Position numbers and translations under genes: made by a program. The notes beneath the pieces were generated by a model. The model searched no databases, was not told where the DNA came from, and saw only the letters and a program-made list of their open reading frames with translations. From Cryptosporangium arvum DSM 44712 (GTDB taxonomy: Bacteria > Actinomycetota > Actinomycetes > Mycobacteriales > Cryptosporangiaceae), in assembly GCF_000585375.1 (NCBI RefSeq), contig NZ_KK073874.1, positions 8,591,913 to 8,655,912 of the forward strand: a DNA stretch of 64,000 bases, read 5' to 3'. Positions 42,737 through 64,000 of the stretch are shown one piece after another. Position 1 is the first letter of the stretch. Every line of letters starts with the position of its first letter.

Positions 42737-43843
42737 TCAGGCGATGGCGGCGGCGGCAGCCTGCGCCTTGGTCAGCAGCTCGGCCGGCAGCTTCGAGTAA
42801 CCGGCGTCGGCGGCAGCGGTCTGACCGGCGTCGCTGAGCACGTAGCCCAGGAAGCCCTTGGTCAGCGCGACCTGGTCCGAAGTGAGGCCCTTCTCGCAGG
42901 TGATCTCGTAGGTCACCAGCACGGCCGGGTAAGCACCGGCCTCCTTGAGGCCGTAGTTCAGCTTCAGCTTCAGGTTGTTGCCGTCGAAGTCCTGCTCGGC
43001 CGCGGCGATGGCCTTGCCGACGGTGTCGTCGGAGATCTCGACCGCGCCGTTGCCGGTGTCGATCCCGGCCGACTTCAGGTTGTTCTTCTTGGCGTCGGGG
43101 GCGTCGACGTAGGCGATCGAGCCGTCCTTGCCGGTCACGGCCGAGACGACGCCGGCCGAGTCGGGCGCACCGGTGCCGGTCTTGCCCTTCCAGCCCTTAC
43201 CGGTGCCGAGCTTCCAGGTCTCCGGCGTCTGCGCGTCGAGGAACTTGGTGAAGTTGTCGGTGGTGCCCGAGTCCTTCGACCGGAAGACGACGGAGATCGC
43301 GGTCGCCGGCAGCGTCGCGCCCGAGTTGGTCTTGGCGATCGCCGGGTCGTTCCACTTGGTGATCTGACCCTGGAAGATCTTCGAGATCGTGCTCGGGTCG
43401 AGCGCCAACTTGTCGACACCGTTCACGTTGAACACGATGGCGACGGCAGTGGCGATGCCCGGGATGTTGATGGCCTTGCCGGTCTTGCAGCGGGTGTCGC
43501 CCGCGGTCTGCTCGTCGTCCTTGAGCGACGAGTCCGACCCGGCGAACGCGACCTTGCCCGAGTTGAAGTCGGTGACACCGGCGCCCGACCCGGTGGCGGC
43601 GTAGTTGATCTGCGCGCCGCAGTCCTTGGCGTACGCCGTCGTCCAGGCGTTCATGGCCGTCTTCTGGGCCGAAGACCCGGAGGCCGAGATCTGACCCTCG
43701 GCGCAGTTCGGGTTCTTGCTGCTGCCCCCGCTGGAGTCGGAGCTCGCCGAGTCGACGTTGTCCGATCCACAAGCGGAAACAGCGAGCAGGCTGGCCAGCG
43801 CGATCCCGGCGAAGGCGCCAGTGCGGTACAGCTTCACGTTCAA
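42737..43843 (-). CDS. pstS: Phosphate-binding lipoprotein PstS
   Basis: A 368-aa solute-binding lipoprotein. The signal peptide ends in the lipobox LAVSAC at about residue 25, followed by a Ser/Asp/Gly linker. The phosphate-binding domain shows ASGSSAQKTAMNAW (phosphate loop) and FAGSDSSLKDDE, with FRSKDSGTTDNFTKFL later, as in PstS/SphX proteins. It is anchored outside the membrane and delivers phosphate to PstC/PstA. It is the first gene of the pst operon, preceded by a PHO-box-type repeat at 43937-43958. Confidence 0.96.
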   Translation of the reverse strand: MNVKLYRTGAFAGIALASLLAVSACGSDNVDSASSDSSGGSSKNPNCAEGQISASGSSAQKTAMNAWTTAYAKDCGAQINYAATGSGAGVTDFNSGKVAFAGSDSSLKDDEQTAGDTRCKTGKAINIPGIATAVAIVFNVNGVDKLALDPSTISKIFQGQITKWNDPAIAKTNSGATLPATAISVVFRSKDSGTTDNFTKFLDAQTPETWKLGTGKGWKGKTGTGAPDSAGVVSAVTGKDGSIAYVDAPDAKKNNLKSAGIDTGNGAVEISDDTVGKAIAAAEQDFDGNNLKLKLNYGLKEAGAYPAVLVTYEITCEKGLTSDQVALTKGFLGYVLSDAGQTAAADAGYSKLPAELLTKAQAAAAAIA

Positions 43844-43936: not shown

Positions 43937-43958
43937 GCCAAATGAACGGACGGTGAAC
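43937..43958 (-). promoter_or_regulatory. PHO box (RegX3/PhoP direct repeat) upstream of pstS
   Basis: Read on the minus strand, GTTCACCGTCC is followed immediately by GTTCATTTGGC: two adjacent 11-bp direct repeats, matching the Streptomyces PHO-box form (GTTCACC/GTTCATT, 11-bp period). A third half-site GTTCACCCAAT lies further upstream (44003-44013). The position 94-115 bp before the pstS start fits an activator site. It supports control by the SenX3-RegX3 pair encoded at 15943-18020. Confidence 0.85.
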
Positions 43959-44052
43959 ACCGCAAGTTGCCGGATAAACCGTCTCTGCACAGGTGGGTGG
44001 CCATTGGGTGAACGAGATCACGCCCCGCGATCACGATCCCGCATCAGCCGGA

Positions 44053-52664: not shown

Positions 52665-52856
52665 TCAGGGCAGGTGGCTCGAGACCGTCGAGAAGGCGGA
52701 GTTGATCTTCCCGCCGAGCGTCACGACGGTCGCGACGATGACGGCGGCGATCAGCGCCGCCAGGAGCCCGTACTCGACGGCGGTCGCGCCGCGGTCGGAT
52801 CGGGCCCGGAGTGCGGAGGCACGGCTGACCACTGCCGTGTAGAGGTGCAGGAACAT
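52665..52856 (-). CDS. flp: Flp/Fap-type pilin (copy 1)
   Basis: A 63-aa prepilin. The leader MFLHLYTAVVSRASALRAR is followed by RSDRG, cleavage presumably after Gly, then ATAVEYGLLAALIAA with the conserved Glu5-Tyr6 pair of Flp pilins. It ends in Ser/His-rich HLP. It is the most divergent of three tandem pilins in its leader and C-terminus. Confidence 0.95.
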   Translation of the reverse strand: MFLHLYTAVVSRASALRARSDRGATAVEYGLLAALIAAVIVATVVTLGGKINSAFSTVSSHLP

Positions 52857-52951: not shown

Positions 52952-53146
52952 TCAGGGGAGCTTGCTGGAGATCGTGTTGAACGCGGTGTTGATCTTCCCG
53001 CCGAGCGTCACGACGGTCGCGACGATGACGGCGGCGATCAGCGCCGCCAGGAGGCCGTACTCGACGGCGGTCGCACCCCGGTCGTTGGCACGATCCTTGA
53101 GTGCGACGGCGCGCTCGGCGATTGCGGTGTAGGCGTAAAGGAACAT
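52952..53146 (-). CDS. flp: Flp/Fap-type pilin (copy 2)
   Basis: A 64-aa prepilin from ATG 53146. The mature part begins ATAVEYGLLAALIAAVIV, same as its neighbours. It differs from copy 3 in only a few residues (ALKD vs ALKA; NTISS vs ATIST). A 95-bp gap separates it from copy 1, enough for a separate ribosome binding site. It is probably a major pilus subunit together with copy 3. Confidence 0.95.
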   Translation of the reverse strand: MFLYAYTAIAERAVALKDRANDRGATAVEYGLLAALIAAVIVATVVTLGGKINTAFNTISSKLP

Positions 53147-53249
53147 CGATCCTCGCTTAGGTCGGTCGGTCCATCCGTGGGCCGGCCACCGGCATTCGGT
53201 GTCGGTCAATCTGTTCGTCGGCAGCTGGCGCGCCGACGTGAGGAGTACG

Positions 53250-53444
53250 TCAGGGCAGCTTGGTGGAGATCGTCGCGAACGCCGTGTTGATCTTCCCGCC
53301 GAGCGTCACGACGGTGGCGACGATGACCGCGGCGATGAGCGCGGCGAGCAGGCCGTACTCGACGGCAGTGGCGCCCCGGTCGTTGGCACGAGCCTTCAGC
53401 GCGACGGCGCGCTCGGCGATTGCGGTGTAGGCGTACAGGAACAT
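53250..53444 (-). CDS. flp: Flp/Fap-type pilin (copy 3, first gene of the operon)
   Basis: A 64-aa prepilin with the same cleavage-site region (NDRG then ATAVEYGLLAA). It is promoter-proximal and therefore likely the most highly expressed pilin. The promoter must be in the 199-bp gap up to the gamma-glutamyltransferase stop. Nucleotide identity to copy 2 across the pilin core is very high, indicating recent duplication or gene conversion. Confidence 0.95.
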   Translation of the reverse strand: MFLYAYTAIAERAVALKARANDRGATAVEYGLLAALIAAVIVATVVTLGGKINTAFATISTKLP

Positions 53445-55458: not shown

Positions 55459-58400
55459 TCAGGCACCCCGGCGGCGCAGGGCGTCCTGCAGGTCGGGATG
55501 CCAGCCCTGACCGATCACCTGGGGCTCCGGGTGCGGCATCGCGTGGCGGCCGCGCCGGGCCGGTGCGGGAACCGGGCCGCGCCGTACCGCCTGCCGGGCG
55601 GCGATGCCGGCGAACAGCAGCAGCGCGCCGATCAGCCCCGCGGCGAGGTTCTGCGGCGAGGTGGTGGCCAGCGTGTTGCGTGGCGAGGCCACGTTGCTGT
55701 TCGACATCGACGCGGAGAGCTGACGGGTGGAGCCGCCCGCGGCGTTGGTGCCGCCGTAGGTGTATTCGCTCGTCGCGACGCCACCGCCGGTGATCACGTG
55801 CACGACGCTGGTGCCCGCGGTGCAGCGCGGCGCGGTGAAGGTGAGCGACGTGGCGTTGCTGTTCACCGCGACCGCGTTGGCGGCGACCTTGGCGTTGCAG
55901 ATGACGACCGCGGTGTCGGCGCCGCCGAGGTTCGCTCCGGTGATCGTGATCGGTGTGCCGCCGTCGGCCGGGCCGCGGGCGGGCGTCAGCGAGGTGATCG
56001 TCGGGGTGGCCTTGGCGGCCGCGCGGGGGTCGGCCGCCGCGGCGGTGAGGTTCGGTGGGCGCAGGCCGGTGGCGGGTGCGCGGTCGAAGAACAGCGGGGC
56101 CGCGGCGGCGGTGAGGCGCTGGGGCAGGACGGCCACTGGGGCCGCGGCCGGCGCGATGAGCAGCGGGTTCGCCGCTGCGGGCGCGATGGCTTCTGCGACC
56201 GGAAGCGCGTCGGGTGCCTCGATCGCGACGTCGGGCACGGCCACCGGCCCGATCACGCCTGCTTCCGCTCCCGTTCCACCCGCCCCGCTCGTGTCCGGGA
56301 CGACGCTGTCCGGCACCGCGTTGTCCGGAACGGTGCTGCCCGGGGTTGTGCTGCCCGGGGTGGTGGTGCCCGGGGCGGTGGTGCCTGGGGCGGTGCTGAC
56401 CGGGGCGGTGTCGGTCGGGGTTGTTACCGCTGGGGCCGCGGTGGCCGGGTCGATCGCGACCGGGTCCGTGATCGCCGGGACCGTGATCGCCGGGGCCGTG
56501 ATCGCCGGGGCCGTCGCGGCCGGGACGGAGGTGGCCGGGGCGACCACACCGGGGATCGTGGTGGTCGGGGCCGTCACCGCCGGGCTCGTGAGGGTCGGGT
56601 TCGTGCCCGTCAGCACCGGGTCCACCAGCGCCGGATCCGTGATCGCCGGAGCCGACGTGCCGGGGACCAGTTCCGCGGGAGACGAAGTGCCGGGGACCGT
56701 CCCCGCGGGAACCGAGGTTCCGGGAGTCGTCCCGACCGGGGCCGCAGCGGCCGGATCGATCGTGGCCGGGTTGGGCGTCGCCTCGGTCGGGGTGGTGTCG
56801 GTGGGAGTGGTCGCGGTGGGGGTGAGCGCGGCCGGGACGCAGGAGGCGGTGGCCAGGCGGATCGTGCCGAGATCCACCGACACCTCGTCGGCACCGATCG
56901 CGGAGATCCGCGCCTCGACCGCGGCGTGCGCTCCCCCGGCGTCGACCGCCGCGGTTTTCTGCAGTTCGACGCCGAGCTGGACCCCGCCGACCGGCACCGT
57001 CACCGGAGCGCCGCCGACCTCGGCGGGAGCGCCGGCGACCAGGAGCCCGGACACGTCGGTCTCCGCGACCGGCTCCGCCGAGCCACCCGGCGGGCAACTC
57101 ACCTGGGCCTCGACCCGGTCCGCGCTCACCAGCGGCGTCCCGAGCGCGGTCAGCTCGAACCGCCCGAGCCGGGCGGCGGCGTCCGAGCCGGTCTCCTGAC
57201 GCTCGGCGCGCACCTCGGTGGCCACGCCGTGCGCGGCGAGTCCGCCCGTGTCCACGCTCACCGGGACCCCGGCCAGCGCCGTGTCCCCGCTCTTCGGCGC
57301 GACCGCGGTGACCCCGTCCCGGCTCAACGCCGTGAACTCCACCGACTCCCCGGACTCCGCGCTGCCACCACCACCCGAGGTTTCGCCCTCGGACAGCTCG
57401 ACCGGCAGCGTCTCGACGCCCGAGGAACCGGCTGCGGACCCCATGTCAGCCGAAGAATCCTCCAACGGAACCTCCGCCGCCGGAGAATCCTCGGCGGCCG
57501 GAACACCCTCCGTGCCCGGAACACCCTCGGCGGCCGGAACGTCCTCCGCGGCCGGCACCAGCGCGTTCACCGTGGCAGCGCGCAGATCGACGCTCATCAC
57601 CTGCGCCGATGCCTCACCGGCCGACGTCACGAGCCGAGCCCCGCTCGACGCGTGCACGAACGCGGGCGACACCAGCGGAGCTCCGGACACCACGCTCGCG
57701 CTCGCGGGCCGCTCCGCCACCGCCAGCACCAGCGCCGCCGCGCACGGCACCGCGACAAGCACCGCTCGGAGCCCGGTCGAACCCATCATCCGGGTCCGGG
57801 GCCGGGGCCGTGCGTGCCCCTTCCGCGTCGTACGCATCTTCCGACCCCTCGCAGTCGTCGAGTAAGGCGTGCCCATCGGCACCGTGAGCCCGCGGGCCCC
57901 CCACACGCACCCGGCGCCGAGCACCAGCAGCACGATGCCGCCGAGCGCCAGACCGTCGATGCCGAAGCCGGTCACGTCGGTGCCGGTGGTCGGCAACCAG
58001 TTCGAGGTGCCGGTCCGGTTCCCGCCGCTGGTGTACCGGGTCCCGCCGGTGGACACCTTCTTGCCGTCCGCCGGCTTCGACGCCGACGCGGCGGCGAATT
58101 CGACCTCCGCGTCGGTGCTACCGCCGGCGGTGGTCAGCTTGATCGTCTGCTTGCCGGCCTTGCAGGCCGGCGCCCGGAACGTGGCCGTCGTCCCGCCGAG
58201 CCCGACGATCACCTGGGAGGCGGGGATCGTGTACCCGCAGATCGTGACCGTTGTTCCGTTGATGACGAAGTTCTCGCCGGTCACCGTGATCAGTCCGCCG
58301 CTGCCGACCTTGAGCTTGGCCGGCTTCACCGAGCTGTCCACCGGCGGCTTCTTGGGCTTCGGCGTGGTCGGCCCGCCCGGCGTCCCGTCGTCCGGGTCCT

Positions 58401-61400
58401 CGGTGCCCGGGTCGGTGCCGGGATCGGTTCCGGGGTCCGGGTCCGGGCCGGGGCCGGGGCCGGGGCCCGGGTTGCCTCCGCCGGTCGTGTAGTACGTGTA
58501 GCTCAGCGGCTGAGCCGGGATGTTGTCGGTGGTCACGACCACGAACACCGATCCGGCCGCGTGCGCGGGCACCACCGCGGTGAGCGTCGTGGCCGACTGC
58601 ACGGTCACGTTCGTCGCCGCGATGCCGTCGAACGTCACGGTGGTCCCGGGGTTGAACCCGCTGCCGGTGATCGTGACGGTCTGCCCGCCCGAGGTCGGGC
58701 CCGTGGTCGGGGTCATGCCGTCCGCCGACGGACCCGCGGCGTAGAACACGTCGTTCGTCGACGCCGCGTCCTCACCCGGAAGGATCACGCTGACGTCCGC
58801 GAGCGTGCCGTTCGGACGCGCCGGCGCCTTCGCGACCACCTGCGAGTTCGGTGTCGCGGCGGCGATCCGCCCGGTCCGGCGCCCGGCGGGCTCGGTCCGG
58901 CGCTCCCCGGACGTCGAGGAGACCGGCTGCACGGCCGCCGCGCGCACCGACGCGGTACCGGCCATCGTCTTCGCCGACAGCAGCTCGCCGTCGACGCCGT
59001 CGAACGTCACCCGGACCGCGTTCTGCAGGTTGACGCCGTTGATCGTCACGAGCGTGCCACCGGTGATGTTCGCGTACGGCGGCACGACCGACGTGATCGC
59101 CGGCGGCGTGTACTCGATCGTGCCGAACGGCTTCGTGCTGTTGTCCGAGAACACCAGCACGATCGCCTTGGTGCCCTGCTCGTGCGGCGGCGACGTGACC
59201 GTCACCTGCGTGGCGCTGGCCGAGACGTTGGTGCCCGGCAGCGCGTCGAAGTTGACGCCGGTGACCGCGGCCAGGCCGGTACCCGTGATCGTGACGGTGG
59301 AGCCGCCGTACGTCGGGATCTGCGCCGGCGTGAGCGACGTCGGCGTCGCGCCGCTGGAGATCGGGGGCACGGTCGCCGGCACGTAGGTGTAGCCACCGCT
59401 CGACTGGGCGTCCGCGCCGGGCAGCGTCACGACCACGTCGACCGCACCGGCGGCGTGCGTCGGAGTGGTGACGGTGATCGACCGGCCGTCGGGCGCGACG
59501 ACCATGCCGGTGCCGGCCAGTCCGTCGAACCGGACGGCGACGGCCTGGGCGAGCCCGGTGCCGGTGATCGTCACCGAGGTGCCGCCGTTGACCGGCCCGG
59601 TGGCCGGGACGATCGAGGTGATCGTCGGCGCGACGTAGTTCAGCGTGCCGATGTTCTTCTGCCCGGCGGCGAACTCCAGCCGGACGATCGGCGAACCGGC
59701 GGTCTCGCTGGCCGGGATCTTCGCGGTCAGCGCGGTGCCGGCGGGGTTGATCACCACACCGACCGCCGCGGTGGAGCCGACGTAGACGCGTGACACGTAG
59801 GACAGGCCCGTGCCGAAGATCGTCAGCGTGTCGCCACCGGCGGTCGGCGAGTCGGCCGCGGACAGCACCGCGGTCGTGGAGCTGCCGTCGGCGAGGTACG
59901 TGAACTTCGCCGCGGCCGGCGACTGGCCCGGCTCCTCGACCGTGATGCTCGCGTCGCCGACCGTCCCGGCCGGGGTCACGAACGTGATCGTGGTGCCGTC
60001 CGGACTGGCCGAGAACGTGACCGGGCGGCCGTTGATCTTGACCGCGGACGCGGCGGCCAGGCCGGTGCCCTTCAGCGTGACCTGGGTGCCGCCCGACTCC
60101 GCCCCGGTCTGCGGCGTCACCGCGGTGATCACCGGCGTGGCGTAGGCGATGGTGCCGCCGTCGATCTTCCCGGCCGGGAAGCCGACCTCGACCTTCGCGG
60201 TGTTGTCGCTGGACGGCGGCGAGGTGACGGTCATCGTGCTGCCGTCGGGGGCCTTGTTCGTGATCGTGCCGGGCACCCCGTCGAACGTCACCTGGGTGGC
60301 GTCGTTGAGGCCGGTGCCGGTGAACGTCACGGTTCCGCCGGAGGCCGGGAGCGACGCCGGGTCGGCGCTCGTGACGCTGGCCCCGGTGCCGTCGGCGATG
60401 TAGGTGAACGTCTGCGCCGGCGGTGAGGCCGCGCTGTAGGTCAGCTTCACGTCCGCCGGGCCGGGCGTGCCGGTCGGCGTCGTGAACGTCATCCGGGTGC
60501 CGCTGGCGTTGACCGTCGGCGTGACCTGGACGTCGTCCACGGTGACGCTCTGGACGCCGCTGAGCGCGAACCCGTCGATCGTCACCTCGGTGCCACCGGC
60601 GGCCGGGCCGCTCGACGGCGACATGCTGGAGATCGTCGGCCCGGCGTAGTAGTAGCCGCGGGGAACCGTGCTCGTCGCGTTCGGGGTGCTCAGCACCACC
60701 TGCACGGCGCCGGACTGGGCCCGCGGCGGCACGGTCACGACGATCTCGTTGTTCCCGGCGCTCACGATCTGCGCGAGGTCTCCGGCGAACGTCACCGTGA
60801 CGACGTCAGCCAGGTTGTCACCGGTGATCGACACCGTCGTCGGCGTGTTCGTCGGGCCGAACGCGGGCGTGATCGCGGTGACCGTCGGCGCGGCCGGCAC
60901 GAGGTAGGCGAAGCCGCCCGCCTGCGTCGCGTCCCGGCCGGGAAGGACCACGGCGACGTCGACGACGCCGGCGCCGTTCGGGGCCTGCGGGGTGCGCGCG
61001 GTGAGCGTGCTCCCGGAGCCGCCGACCACCACGTCGGTCGCGGGCGCACCGTCGAACGTCACCTGGGTGGCGCCGGTGAACCCGATGCCGGTGAGCGTGA
61101 CCAGGGTGTCTCCGGCCACCGGGCCCTGTGACGGGTACACGGTGTAGATCGCCGGGGCGACGTAGTTGATCGTGCCGGCCTCGAAGTTGCCGCCCGGGAA
61201 CCAGACCAGCACCGTCACCGGGCCGGAGTTCTCGGTCGGCGGGGCGGTCACGGTGATCCTGGTGCCGTTCGGGTCGACCGTGAGGTCGTCGCCGGCCTTG
61301 CCGCCGAACGTCACCGCGGTCGCGCCGGTGAAGTTCGTGCCCTGCATGGTGACGGTGCCCCCCGCGGTCGGGATGCTCGACGGGCTCAGGCTGGTGACCG

Positions 61401-64000
61401 AGGTGTTGGTGCCGTCCGGCACGTACCGGTAGGCGGCCCGCTTCACCGCGTCCATGCCCGGCAGCGTCACGACGACGTCGACCGTCCCGGGCCCGTGCGC
61501 CGGGGTCTTGACGACGACCGCCGAACCGGCCGGGTCACGGCTGGTGATGTCGGCCGCGACCCCGTCGAACGTCACGGCCGTGGCCTGGTCGAGGCCGCTG
61601 CCCTGGATCACGACCGAGTTGCCGCCGGAGTCCGATCCGGACGCGGGGTCGAGCGCCCGGATCTCGGGGGCGACGTACTTCAGCTGGGTGGCCGAGAGCG
61701 CCGCGCCGTTCGGCGTGACCACGGCGACGTCCACCGCGGTGTCGGTCTCGGACGCCGGGACCAGCGCGCGGACCTGGGTGTCGGTCGGCGTGCCCTGGAT
61801 GTCGGCGGACTTGCCGCCGATCGTCACCGACGTCGCCCCGCTCAGGTTGGTGCCGGTGATCGTGATGACTTCGCCGCCGTCGGTGGAGCTCGTCGTCGGC
61901 GAGATGCCGCTGATCGCCGGCGGCGGCAGCGGTGAGTACGTGAAGCCGCCGACCGCGGTGGCGTCCGCACCCGGCAGCACCACCAGCACGTCCACCGCAC
62001 CGGCCGCGTGGGCCGGGACGGTCGCGGTGACGACGCCGTTCTGGTCGACCGCGAAGTCGGTCGTCGGCTTGCCGTCCACGGTCACCGCGGTCGCGCCGGC
62101 CAGCCCGGTACCGGAGATCCGGATGCGCGTGCCGCCGTCGACGTAACCGCGGTCCGGTGCGACGGTCCTGATCGTCGGTGCGACGTACGCGGCCGTGCCA
62201 CCGCGGTAGGTGCCCAGCGGGAACGTGATCTCGACCGGTGCCGGGCCGGCGTTCTCGCGCGCCGGAGCGTTCGCGGTCAGCGTCGTGCCGTCCTGGCTCA
62301 CCGAGACGACCGAGCCCGGCAGCCCGCCGAACGTGATGCCGTTCGCGCCGGTCAGGTTGGTGCCGGTGACCGTGACCTGCCCACCGGCGGTGGCGACCGA
62401 GGGCGCCACGTTCGTCACCGACGAGTTCGAACCGTCCGCGACGTAGGTGTAGGTCAGCGGCTGTGGGTCGGGGCCGGTGAAGTCGACGACGACCGGCGCG
62501 TCACCGGCGACGCCGGCGGGGGTCGTGAACGTGATCGTCGTGGTGGTCGTGGCGAACGCGGTGACCCCGACCCCGCCGACCTTGACGCTCAGCGCGTTCT
62601 TGAGCTGGGTGCCGGTGAGCGTGACCGACGTTCCCCCGGCGACCGCGCCGCTGGCCGGGGAGATCCCGGTGAGCGTCGGACCCTGGTAGGTGTACCCGTT
62701 CGGGAGGATGCCGGTGCCGGCCGGGCTGGTGACCGCGATCGCGACCGGGCCGACGTCGTTGGACGCCGGTGTGGTGACGGTCAGGCTGGTGTCCGAGCTG
62801 ACCAGCAGGTCGGTGGCCGGCACGCCGTTGAACGTGACCTGGTTGACGTTCGTGAAGTTCGTGCCGGTCAGCGTCACGCTGGTGCCGCCGCTGCTCGGGC
62901 CCTGCGGCACCGAGACGTTCGTGATGGTCGGCGCGCCCGGGGCCACGTAGGCGAAGCCGTTGTTCGCCCGCGCGTCCGCGCCGGGGAGCTCGACGACGAC
63001 GTTCACCGCACCCGGGTTGTTGCCGGCCGGGGTCCGGACGGTCAGCCCGGTGGCGGTGACCGTCAGGTCGGTCGCGGGTGTGCCGCCGAACAGCACCCGG
63101 GTCGCCGCGCTCAGCCCGGTACCGGTGATCGTCACGACGTCGCCACCGGCGACGGCGCCCTGCGCGGGCTGGATCGACGTGATGGCCGGAGCCACGTACG
63201 TGAGGTCACCGGCGTTGACCGTGCCGCTCGGGAACCGCAGCGCCACCGGGACGCTGCCCGGGGTCTCGGTCGGCGGTGCGGTCACCGTGATCTTCGTTCC
63301 GTTCGGGTCCACCACCAGGTTCGTGCCGGGGACGCCGTCGAACAGGACGGCCGTGGCCGCGGCGAGGTTCGACCCGGTGATCGTCACCGTGCCACCGGCG
63401 GCCGGGACCGAGCGCGGGTCGATCGCGGTGATCTGCGAGGCCGAGCCGTCGTCCTGGTAGGTGTAGGCGCTCACCGCCTTGGCGTCCGCGCCGGGCACCA
63501 CCACGGTCACGTCGACGACGCCCGGCGCGTGCGGTGGCACGGTCACGTTGACCTTGGTGCCGGCCGGGTTCACGGTCACGCCGGTCGCCTCGGCGTCGCC
63601 GAAGCGCACGGCGGTCGCGCCGGTGAGCCCGGTGCCGATGATCTCGACCGCGTTGGTGCCCGCGGCCGGTCCGCTGACCGGCGTCACGCTGGTGATCGTC
63701 GGCGCCTCGTAGGTGATCGAGCCACCGTCCGCGGAGCCGGCCGGGAACTTGATCGAGACCGCGGCCGCGCCCGCGGTCTCGGTGGCGGGCGCGGTGACCG
63801 TGATCGCCGTGCTGTTCACGGTCAGGTTCGTGCCGGGCACGCCGGCGAACGTCACGCCGGTGGCGCCGGTGAAGTTCGTGCCGGTGATCGTGACCCGGCG
63901 TCCCGAGGTCGGGATCGGGCTCGGGTTGATGGTGCTGACCGTGGTCTGGGAACCGTCGTACTCGTACGTGTACTTGATCGGGTCCGGGTCGTTGCCGGTG
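55459..64000 (-). CDS. Giant surface protein of IPT/TIG repeats with mid-protein LPTTG signal and second signal peptide (5' end beyond window)
   Basis: At least 2,846 residues; the frame is open to base 64000, where it still encodes an IPT repeat, so the true start is outside. From 64000 to about 58500 it is a chain of about 21 IPT/TIG Ig-like domains of 80-90 residues (typical GGTSVTITGTGL). One has an inserted Ser/Arg/Ala-rich segment near 58850-58960. Then come a Pro/Gly/Asp linker, a last atypical repeat, LPTTG (about 57982-57996), a membrane helix and a basic stretch. In the same frame follow a second signal-like segment ending PASAS (about 57700), a choice-of-anchor-like domain, a Thr/Pro/Ala stalk (about 56250-56830), one more IPT domain, a final helix and a basic tail. 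It is a probable adhesin or wall-spanning protein, and possibly two fused genes. Confidence 0.8.
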   Translation of the reverse strand, partial: TGNDPDPIKYTYEYDGSQTTVSTINPSPIPTSGRRVTITGTNFTGATGVTFAGVPGTNLTVNSTAITVTAPATETAGAAAVSIKFPAGSADGGSITYEAPTITSVTPVSGPAAGTNAVEIIGTGLTGATAVRFGDAEATGVTVNPAGTKVNVTVPPHAPGVVDVTVVVPGADAKAVSAYTYQDDGSASQITAIDPRSVPAAGGTVTITGSNLAAATAVLFDGVPGTNLVVDPNGTKITVTAPPTETPGSVPVALRFPSGTVNAGDLTYVAPAITSIQPAQGAVAGGDVVTITGTGLSAATRVLFGGTPATDLTVTATGLTVRTPAGNNPGAVNVVVELPGADARANNGFAYVAPGAPTITNVSVPQGPSSGGTSVTLTGTNFTNVNQVTFNGVPATDLLVSSDTSLTVTTPASNDVGPVAIAVTSPAGTGILPNGYTYQGPTLTGISPASGAVAGGTSVTLTGTQLKNALSVKVGGVGVTAFATTTTTITFTTPAGVAGDAPVVVDFTGPDPQPLTYTYVADGSNSSVTNVAPSVATAGGQVTVTGTNLTGANGITFGGLPGSVVSVSQDGTTLTANAPARENAGPAPVEITFPLGTYRGGTAAYVAPTIRTVAPDRGYVDGGTRIRISGTGLAGATAVTVDGKPTTDFAVDQNGVVTATVPAHAAGAVDVLVVLPGADATAVGGFTYSPLPPPAISGISPTTSSTDGGEVITITGTNLSGATSVTIGGKSADIQGTPTDTQVRALVPASETDTAVDVAVVTPNGAALSATQLKYVAPEIRALDPASGSDSGGNSVVIQGSGLDQATAVTFDGVAADITSRDPAGSAVVVKTPAHGPGTVDVVVTLPGMDAVKRAAYRYVPDGTNTSVTSLSPSSIPTAGGTVTMQGTNFTGATAVTFGGKAGDDLTVDPNGTRITVTAPPTENSGPVTVLVWFPGGNFEAGTINYVAPAIYTVYPSQGPVAGDTLVTLTGIGFTGATQVTFDGAPATDVVVGGSGSTLTARTPQAPNGAGVVDVAVVLPGRDATQAGGFAYLVPAAPTVTAITPAFGPTNTPTTVSITGDNLADVVTVTFAGDLAQIVSAGNNEIVVTVPPRAQSGAVQVVLSTPNATSTVPRGYYYAGPTISSMSPSSGPAAGGTEVTIDGFALSGVQSVTVDDVQVTPTVNASGTRMTFTTPTGTPGPADVKLTYSAASPPAQTFTYIADGTGASVTSADPASLPASGGTVTFTGTGLNDATQVTFDGVPGTITNKAPDGSTMTVTSPPSSDNTAKVEVGFPAGKIDGGTIAYATPVITAVTPQTGAESGGTQVTLKGTGLAAASAVKINGRPVTFSASPDGTTITFVTPAGTVGDASITVEEPGQSPAAAKFTYLADGSSTTAVLSAADSPTAGGDTLTIFGTGLSYVSRVYVGSTAAVGVVINPAGTALTAKIPASETAGSPIVRLEFAAGQKNIGTLNYVAPTITSIVPATGPVNGGTSVTITGTGLAQAVAVRFDGLAGTGMVVAPDGRSITVTTPTHAAGAVDVVVTLPGADAQSSGGYTYVPATVPPISSGATPTSLTPAQIPTYGGSTVTITGTGLAAVTGVNFDALPGTNVSASATQVTVTSPPHEQGTKAIVLVFSDNSTKPFGTIEYTPPAITSVVPPYANITGGTLVTINGVNLQNAVRVTFDGVDGELLSAKTMAGTASVRAAAVQPVSSTSGERRTEPAGRRTGRIAAATPNSQVVAKAPARPNGTLADVSVILPGEDAASTNDVFYAAGPSADGMTPTTGPTSGGQTVTITGSGFNPGTTVTFDGIAATNVTVQSATTLTAVVPAHAAGSVFVVVTTDNIPAQPLSYTYYTTGGGNPGPGPGPGPDPDPGTDPGTDPGTEDPDDGTPGGPTTPKPKKPPVDSSVKPAKLKVGSGGLITVTGENFVINGTTVTICGYTIPASQVIVGLGGTTATFRAPACKAGKQTIKLTTAGGSTDAEVEFAAASASKPADGKKVSTGGTRYTSGGNRTGTSNWLPTTGTDVTGFGIDGLALGGIVLLVLGAGCVWGARGLTVPMGTPYSTTARGRKMRTTRKGHARPRPRTRMMGSTGLRAVLVAVPCAAALVLAVAERPASASVVSGAPLVSPAFVHASSGARLVTSAGEASAQVMSVDLRAATVNALVPAAEDVPAAEGVPGTEGVPAAEDSPAAEVPLEDSSADMGSAAGSSGVETLPVELSEGETSGGGGSAESGESVEFTALSRDGVTAVAPKSGDTALAGVPVSVDTGGLAAHGVATEVRAERQETGSDAAARLGRFELTALGTPLVSADRVEAQVSCPPGGSAEPVAETDVSGLLVAGAPAEVGGAPVTVPVGGVQLGVELQKTAAVDAGGAHAAVEARISAIGADEVSVDLGTIRLATASCVPAALTPTATTPTDTTPTEATPNPATIDPAAAAPVGTTPGTSVPAGTVPGTSSPAELVPGTSAPAITDPALVDPVLTGTNPTLTSPAVTAPTTTIPGVVAPATSVPAATAPAITAPAITVPAITDPVAIDPATAAPAVTTPTDTAPVSTAPGTTAPGTTTPGSTTPGSTVPDNAVPDSVVPDTSGAGGTGAEAGVIGPVAVPDVAIEAPDALPVAEAIAPAAANPLLIAPAAAPVAVLPQRLTAAAAPLFFDRAPATGLRPPNLTAAAADPRAAAKATPTITSLTPARGPADGGTPITITGANLGGADTAVVICNAKVAANAVAVNSNATSLTFTAPRCTAGTSVVHVITGGGVATSEYTYGGTNAAGGSTRQLSASMSNSNVASPRNTLATTSPQNLAAGLIGALLLFAGIAARQAVRRGPVPAPARRGRHAMPHPEPQVIGQGWHPDLQDALRRRGA
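56250..56830 (-). repeat. In-gene Thr/Pro/Ala-rich pentapeptide-like stalk repeats
   Basis: This part encodes degenerate units of TTAPG, TTTPG, STTPG, STVPD and AITVPAITDP type. At 56330-56410 the DNA is almost a 15-bp tandem repeat. The composition suits an extended, possibly O-mannosylated wall-spanning stalk between the choice-of-anchor-like domain and the terminal IPT domain. Confidence 0.8.
57835..57850 (-). other. Candidate internal ribosome binding site and ATG within the giant IPT gene
   Basis: On the minus strand GAGGGG (57850-57845) lies 7 nt before an in-frame ATG (57837-57835). Starting here would make a 792-aa protein with basic leader MRTTRKGHARPRPRTR and hydrophobic core LRAVLVAVPCAAALVLAVA, a normal signal peptide. 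It supports the idea of an independent downstream gene that lost the stop codon separating it from the upstream gene. Confidence 0.6.
59884..63951 (-). repeat. About 1-kb super-repeat of four IPT domains
   Basis: An (A)DG(S/T) linker marker recurs at about 63951, 63446, 62431, 61411, 60388 and 59884. The spacings are about 505, 1015, 1020, 1023 and 504 bp. The chain therefore consists of three four-domain units flanked by half units, implying expansion by duplication of multi-domain blocks rather than single domains. Confidence 0.75.

Follow-up and report, generated by a model that had tools for sequence, protein, structure and literature searches.

A mid-chain LPTTG sorting signal joins two paralogous TIG surface proteins in one open frame, possibly a sortase-processed polyprotein

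We describe a single open frame on the (-) strand in which one surface protein-like sequence, ending in an LPTTG sorting signal, continues directly into a second, paralogous one. The reading that we favour, with confidence somewhat better than even, is that the frame encodes a polyprotein in which two paralogous surface proteins are linked; sortase and signal peptidase would cut at the join, and the second half is probably also started internally. Coordinates are positions in the window, the 64,000-nucleotide stretch of DNA that was analysed. Its source, the high-GC bacterial genome G000, comprises 9.2 Mb in a single contig.

The frame extends from stop to stop over 55459-66009 (-). Its likely start is an ATG at 65988, which yields a protein of 3509 residues; this ATG sits 2 kb past the edge of the window, which the giant frame thus exceeds (Table 1). 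As originally predicted, and at the predicted positions, the frame passes without a stop through LPTTG, a membrane helix (helix 1), a basic tail and a new signal peptide-like segment. The further remark that no minus frame stops over the first tens of codons after the helix holds for that distance only, as the other two frames stop after 33 and 90 codons. The domain order is signal peptide, N-domain, 27 TIG domains, LPTTG, helix 1, basic linker, second signal peptide, paralogous N-domain, one TIG domain and a final helix, with 27 of the 28 TIG matches (PF01833) located upstream of the join and 1 downstream. The sorting signal is not C-terminal: past LPTTG, the frame extends for about 840 codons in G000, and the same applies to G001, a second species of the genus.

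The N-domains of the two halves align with an hhalign probability of 96.5 (E 7.9e-10, 166 columns), and neither is named by Pfam or NCBIfam. Judged by their sequences, the two halves are paralogues built on a common plan of signal peptide, N-domain, TIG and membrane helix. The downstream half had been predicted to carry a C-terminal anchor of its own. The C-terminal helix and tail are present, but there is no LPXTG in the sequence of this half, and its anchor therefore looks like a plain membrane helix. Within the giant half, an Arg/Ala/Ser-rich insertion at 58995-58830 (-) (about SAKTMAGTASVRAAAV to NSQVV) breaks one of the last TIG domains; a shorter, different insertion is found at this point in G001.

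Table 1. Features of the giant frame, listed from its 5' to its 3' end after the two rows for its overall extent.
Feature	Position	Strand	Description
In-window portion of the single open frame	55459..64000	(-)	Stop at 55459
Giant first half	57982..64000	(-)	From within the TIG array through LPTTG; rest outside the window
Signal peptide and N-domain of the giant half	65988-65260	(-)	Outside the window
LPTTG sorting motif	57982..57996	(-)	Codons 2665-2669; part of a 41-codon block 40/41 identical in G001
Helix 1, membrane helix of the sorting signal	57889..57954	(-)	Codons 2679-2700; hydropathy peak 2.17; conserved; retained in G003
Basic linker	57766..57894	(-)	43 residues; net charge +12; acidic residues 0
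Shine-Dalgarno-like stretch with GAGGGG	57838..57857	(-)	Duplex energy -8.3 kcal/mol
Candidate internal start ATG	57835..57837	(-)	Codon 2718
Second signal peptide-like segment	57697..57777	(-)	Codons 2738-2764; ends in PASA; hydropathy peak 2.38; 25/27 identical in G001
N-domain of the downstream half	56839..57342	(-)	Paralogous to the N-domain of the giant half
Single TIG domain of the downstream half	55750..56004	(-)	Pfam match
C-terminal membrane helix of the downstream half, then basic tail	55597..55650	(-)	Codons 3447-3464; hydropathy peak

The same fused frame, of 3586 residues, is found in G001. A third species, G003, has a frame of 693 codons without everything up to and including LPTTG; it starts with the residues that follow this motif and comprises helix 1, the linker, the signal peptide and the downstream protein, in this order and all in frame. 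In a fourth species, G002, only the signal peptide and the downstream protein are present, with no Pfam TIG match. Two separate genes, an arrangement that the original prediction had envisaged in relatives, thus occur at this locus in 0 of the 3 relatives, one being fused and two being without the long half. The fusion in G001 also excludes a strain-specific loss of the stop. Two runs of repeated units were observed in these relatives: near-identical VDGAG units that follow the second signal peptide in G001 (around 8113-8154 of L036), and PGRAADV-type units in the G002 protein (ORF 8092-9750 of L038).

A search with the downstream half matched 16 of 61 genomes. Four of these are the genus members; in the other 12, the matches are confined to the Thr/Pro-rich or TIG part of the query. 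Within the family, 4 of 5 genomes were matched. Across the order, a search with the join matched 14 of 397 genomes. Three of these are genus members, G002 not being among them, and the remaining 11 matches are weak (E 2.4e-4 to 9.9e-4). Two pattern scans of GTDB r220 contigs (50 and 449 matches), a set that may lack genomes close to the window, gave no relative by tblastn.

The four genus members share a gene order of regulator, GNAT-type gene, locus and gamma-glutamyltransferase-type gene; we take the regulator, two genes upstream of the locus, to be OmpR-like, and the types of the other two neighbours are likewise presumed. A promoter-like sequence precedes the frame in 4 of 4 members, consisting of TTAACA (TTACCG in G001), 18 bases, TACGTT (TACCTT in G003), 6-7 bases and the ATG, and looks leaderless. 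With a similar promoter-like sequence in all four, the giant half was therefore either lost from, or inserted behind, one promoter, and loss is favoured because helix 1 is kept in G003. In the rpoB tree, G000 and G001 are paired with a support of 95 (85 without G004), and G002 and G003 are weakly paired (55, or 59 without G004). Two flanking proteins both pair G002 with G003 (87% and 84% identity). The gamma-glutamyltransferase-type protein contradicts rpoB, G000 being 82% identical to G002 and 81% to G003 but 76% to G001. Under the rpoB tree, a single event within one clade may account for the fusion, whereas on the relations of the gamma-glutamyltransferase-type protein it would be ancestral and later lost.

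Upstream of the ATG of the giant (L007, about 65989-66063, beyond the window), the promoter-like sequence is preceded by a direct repeat with an 11-base period, CTGCACCCGAATTGCACC. G001 and G003 retain this repeat; in G002 its first copy is altered. At two mismatches the repeat has 11 further matches in the genome, versus 3 for a reversed control; a regulon was ruled out, the genome holding one exact copy. Elsewhere in the window, two TTCACC-type pairs resembling PHO boxes occur at 43941-44012 (-), a pattern with 7 matches in the window versus 2.45 expected, and the gene downstream of them (42737-43843) is presumably phosphate-binding-protein-like. Three tandem short ORFs (52665-52856, 52952-53209 and 53250-53444, all (-)) have nearly the same core, RGATAVEYGLLAALIAAVIVATVVTLGGKIN, and are presumably Flp-pilin-like.

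Conservation around the join differs from segment to segment. Between G000 and G001, the block of LPTTG and helix 1 is identical at 40 of 41 positions (0.98; pN 0.012, pS 0.44) and the second signal peptide at 25 of 27 (0.93; pN 0.063, pS 0.30). Identity is 13 of 35 in the linker (0.37; dN 0.68, dS 0.47), 0.49 and 0.50 in the N-domains and 0.63-0.72 in the TIG stretches, and pS is 0.3-0.6 across the region. The helix-1 segment ranks 1 of the 3637 segments of 41 columns in the G000-G001 alignment. Helix 1 does not stand alone when segments of 27 columns are used: it has 0.96, a TIG stretch at codon 2296 has 1.00, and 58 of 3651 segments attain the 0.93 of the signal peptide. In comparisons with G003, helix 1 is the top segment for G001 (22/26 identical, 310 segments) and ties with the top one for G000 (20/26, 320 segments), and the signal peptide is less conserved (16-17/27).

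The linker has a net charge of +12 in G000, +12 in G001 and +10 in G003, with no acidic residue in any of them, which suits a cytoplasmic loop. Conserved membrane segments connected by a linker that keeps only its charge point to selection on both segments, as would fit a hairpin whose loop lies inside. For a sorting helix that is simply discarded, such retention of residues would not be expected. For helix 1 in G003, a recent loss of the giant half could also be the explanation. The open linker as proof of selection was rejected as weak, the probability of a stop-free linker under neutral substitution being 0.37-0.68; the linker may be open neutrally and appears to evolve freely at the residue level. 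The degree of residue identity in helix 1 and in the second signal peptide, on either side of the join, is by contrast remarkable.

Both fused species, G000 and G001, have an AGGGG preceding an ATG in the linker. The Shine-Dalgarno (SD) duplex energy in G000, -8.3 kcal/mol, ranks 5 of 196 candidate starts and 3 of 18 ATGs, and that in G001, -11.3 kcal/mol, ranks 1 of 171; at the corresponding ATG of G003, which is without the giant half, the SD energy is -1.7. When the amino acids are kept and synonyms resampled, the chance of an SD as strong is 0.096 in G000 and 0.008 in G001. The rare codon AGG is present in 3 copies in the G000 ORF and 4 in that of G001, of which 1 and 2, respectively, lie within four codons before the ATG. 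The internal ATGs are located 20 and 23 codons before the signal peptide TGL, three alignment columns apart, and would correspond only if the alignment gap is moved; our confidence in the polyprotein, a little above even, takes account of this difference. At the ATG, mRNA structure in G000 is weak (4.4% of positions are no stronger), and in G001 it is ordinary (31%).

Codon usage also shifts at the join. The strongest amino-acid-corrected drop in C-ending codons of each ORF has a z of -4.36 in G000 (60 codons from 2700) and -5.68 in G001 (from 2712), and the lowest amino-acid-corrected C3 segment overlaps the internal ATG in both. Among 44 gene-like ORFs of the window, a set that includes the giant ORF and in which some starts may be called too early, z falls below -3 in 2 of 242 inner segments and in 7 of 44 first-60 segments. 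Extending from about 30-75 codons upstream of the ATG to about 165 downstream, the dip is broad and thus marks a separate origin or a 5' end but does not prove initiation. Translation from the ATG at 57835 probably also yields the downstream half on its own. This internal start, part of the original prediction, is supported, short of proof, by the shift in codon usage and by the presence of an ATG with an SD-like AGGGG in G000 and G001 alike.

A sortase gene had been expected outside the window and was found there. It is the sole PF04203 match in the G000 genome and belongs to class E by NCBIfam (227 bits, cut-off 160). In G001, G002 and G003, the class E search gave one match each above the cut-off. 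Class E sortases prefer LAXTG over LPXTG, which speaks mildly against LPTTG as a substrate. The giant frame contains the pattern of LPXTG followed by a hydrophobic helix and then basic residues, and the G000 genome encodes two other proteins, with LPVTG and ordinary ends (L059 and L060). PF00746 was discarded as a substrate finder, its 9 genome matches at E up to 1 not including the giant locus; L059 is among these matches, and in five others that were inspected no LPXTG was seen beside the match.

In the polyprotein that we favour, two tandem paralogous surface-protein genes form one reading frame. The first signal peptide would export the long product until helix 1 stops transfer, so that the basic linker remains inside, and the second signal peptide would restart export for the downstream half. 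Cleavage of LPTT|G by the class E sortase would link the 27-TIG half to the wall, and cleavage after PASA by signal peptidase would release the downstream half, which would be retained by its own C-terminal helix. A two-helix hairpin of 96 residues would be left in the membrane. We infer this topology, both cuts and the use of the internal start; the basis for the cuts is the presence of the signals and of one class E sortase. Loss of the stop would have cost little, because the part after LPTTG is cut away and the next protein has its own export signal. The original prediction had opposed a polypeptide cut by sortase to a lost stop with an internal start; the evidence fits a combination of both. 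More speculatively, there might be three products, namely a giant TIG protein anchored to the wall, a paralogue held in the membrane and, left behind by the two cuts, a conserved two-helix hairpin with a role of its own, for example in reporting the anchoring of the giant. Such a role, to which we assign a low probability, would explain the conservation rank of helix 1 and the presence of helix, linker and signal peptide in G003.

The locus might instead be effectively two ordinary genes, which we regard as possible though not probable. The stop would have been lost in the ancestor of the fused pair, harmlessly because sortase discards what follows LPTTG; synthesis of the downstream protein would begin mainly at the internal start, and a copy made by read-through would have no role. 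The linker shows no visible residue constraint apart from its charge, and its neutral chance of being stop-free (0.37-0.68), the SD-like stretch and the codon shift at the join are all consistent with two genes, as is the rpoB pairing of G000 with G001, by which the fusion may be a single event. However, two ordinary genes leave unexplained both the rank of helix 1 as the most conserved 41-column segment and the in-frame helix and linker of G003 without LPTTG, and the SD in G000 is only moderately beyond chance.

That the protein is never cut, its hydrophobic segments forming a permanent two-helix hairpin that joins two outer domains, appears unlikely. Both segments are highly conserved and G003 retains the pair without LPTTG, which favours such a hairpin, but LPTTG and the cleavage-type ending PASA are both kept in G001 and the genome encodes a sortase. 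An artefact of sequencing or assembly that joined two genes is very improbable. Apart from G-rich sequence near the join, nothing was found in its favour, and the same continuous frame in the separately assembled G001, with pS 0.3-0.6 across the region, contradicts the sequencing error near the join that had been considered with the original prediction.

The giant half shares with LPXTG sortase substrates a signal peptide, extracellular repeats, LPXTG, a membrane helix and basic residues. It differs from them in that the sorting signal, usually described as a C-terminal tag, is mid-chain and followed by a whole second surface protein, and in that the basic part doubles as the start of a second signal peptide. 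Cleavage at an internal signal sequence is known from bacterial polyproteins such as FbcH (cytochrome b/c1) of Bradyrhizobium. FbcH and the present frame have in common one chain, an internal export signal and an expected signal peptidase cut between two products; here, a sortase site also precedes the join and an internal start is likely. TIG repeats are shared with TIG/IPT repeat surface proteins (PF01833), but here two paralogous TIG proteins are joined through a sorting signal. The streptococcal C-pep is described as the part of LPXTG adhesins that remains in the membrane, where a two-component system senses it (PMC7763024, PMC11502775); in the system of the latter study, C-peptide removal had no effect (PMC11502775). 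By comparison with C-pep as so described, a membrane remnant would exist here too after sortase cleavage, but it would be a two-helix hairpin that is also cut by signal peptidase. A literature search returned nothing on sortase substrates with an internal sorting signal or internal LPXTG and, judged from the search results alone, nothing on LPXTG polyproteins or fused sortase substrates.

At a locus of this kind, gene calling would yield a single giant protein and thereby hide the second surface protein and its start. From a conserved mid-chain sorting signal it would follow that sortase can serve as an enzyme of polyprotein processing, that a sorting signal need not be followed by a stop, and that strong selection can act on a discarded helix.
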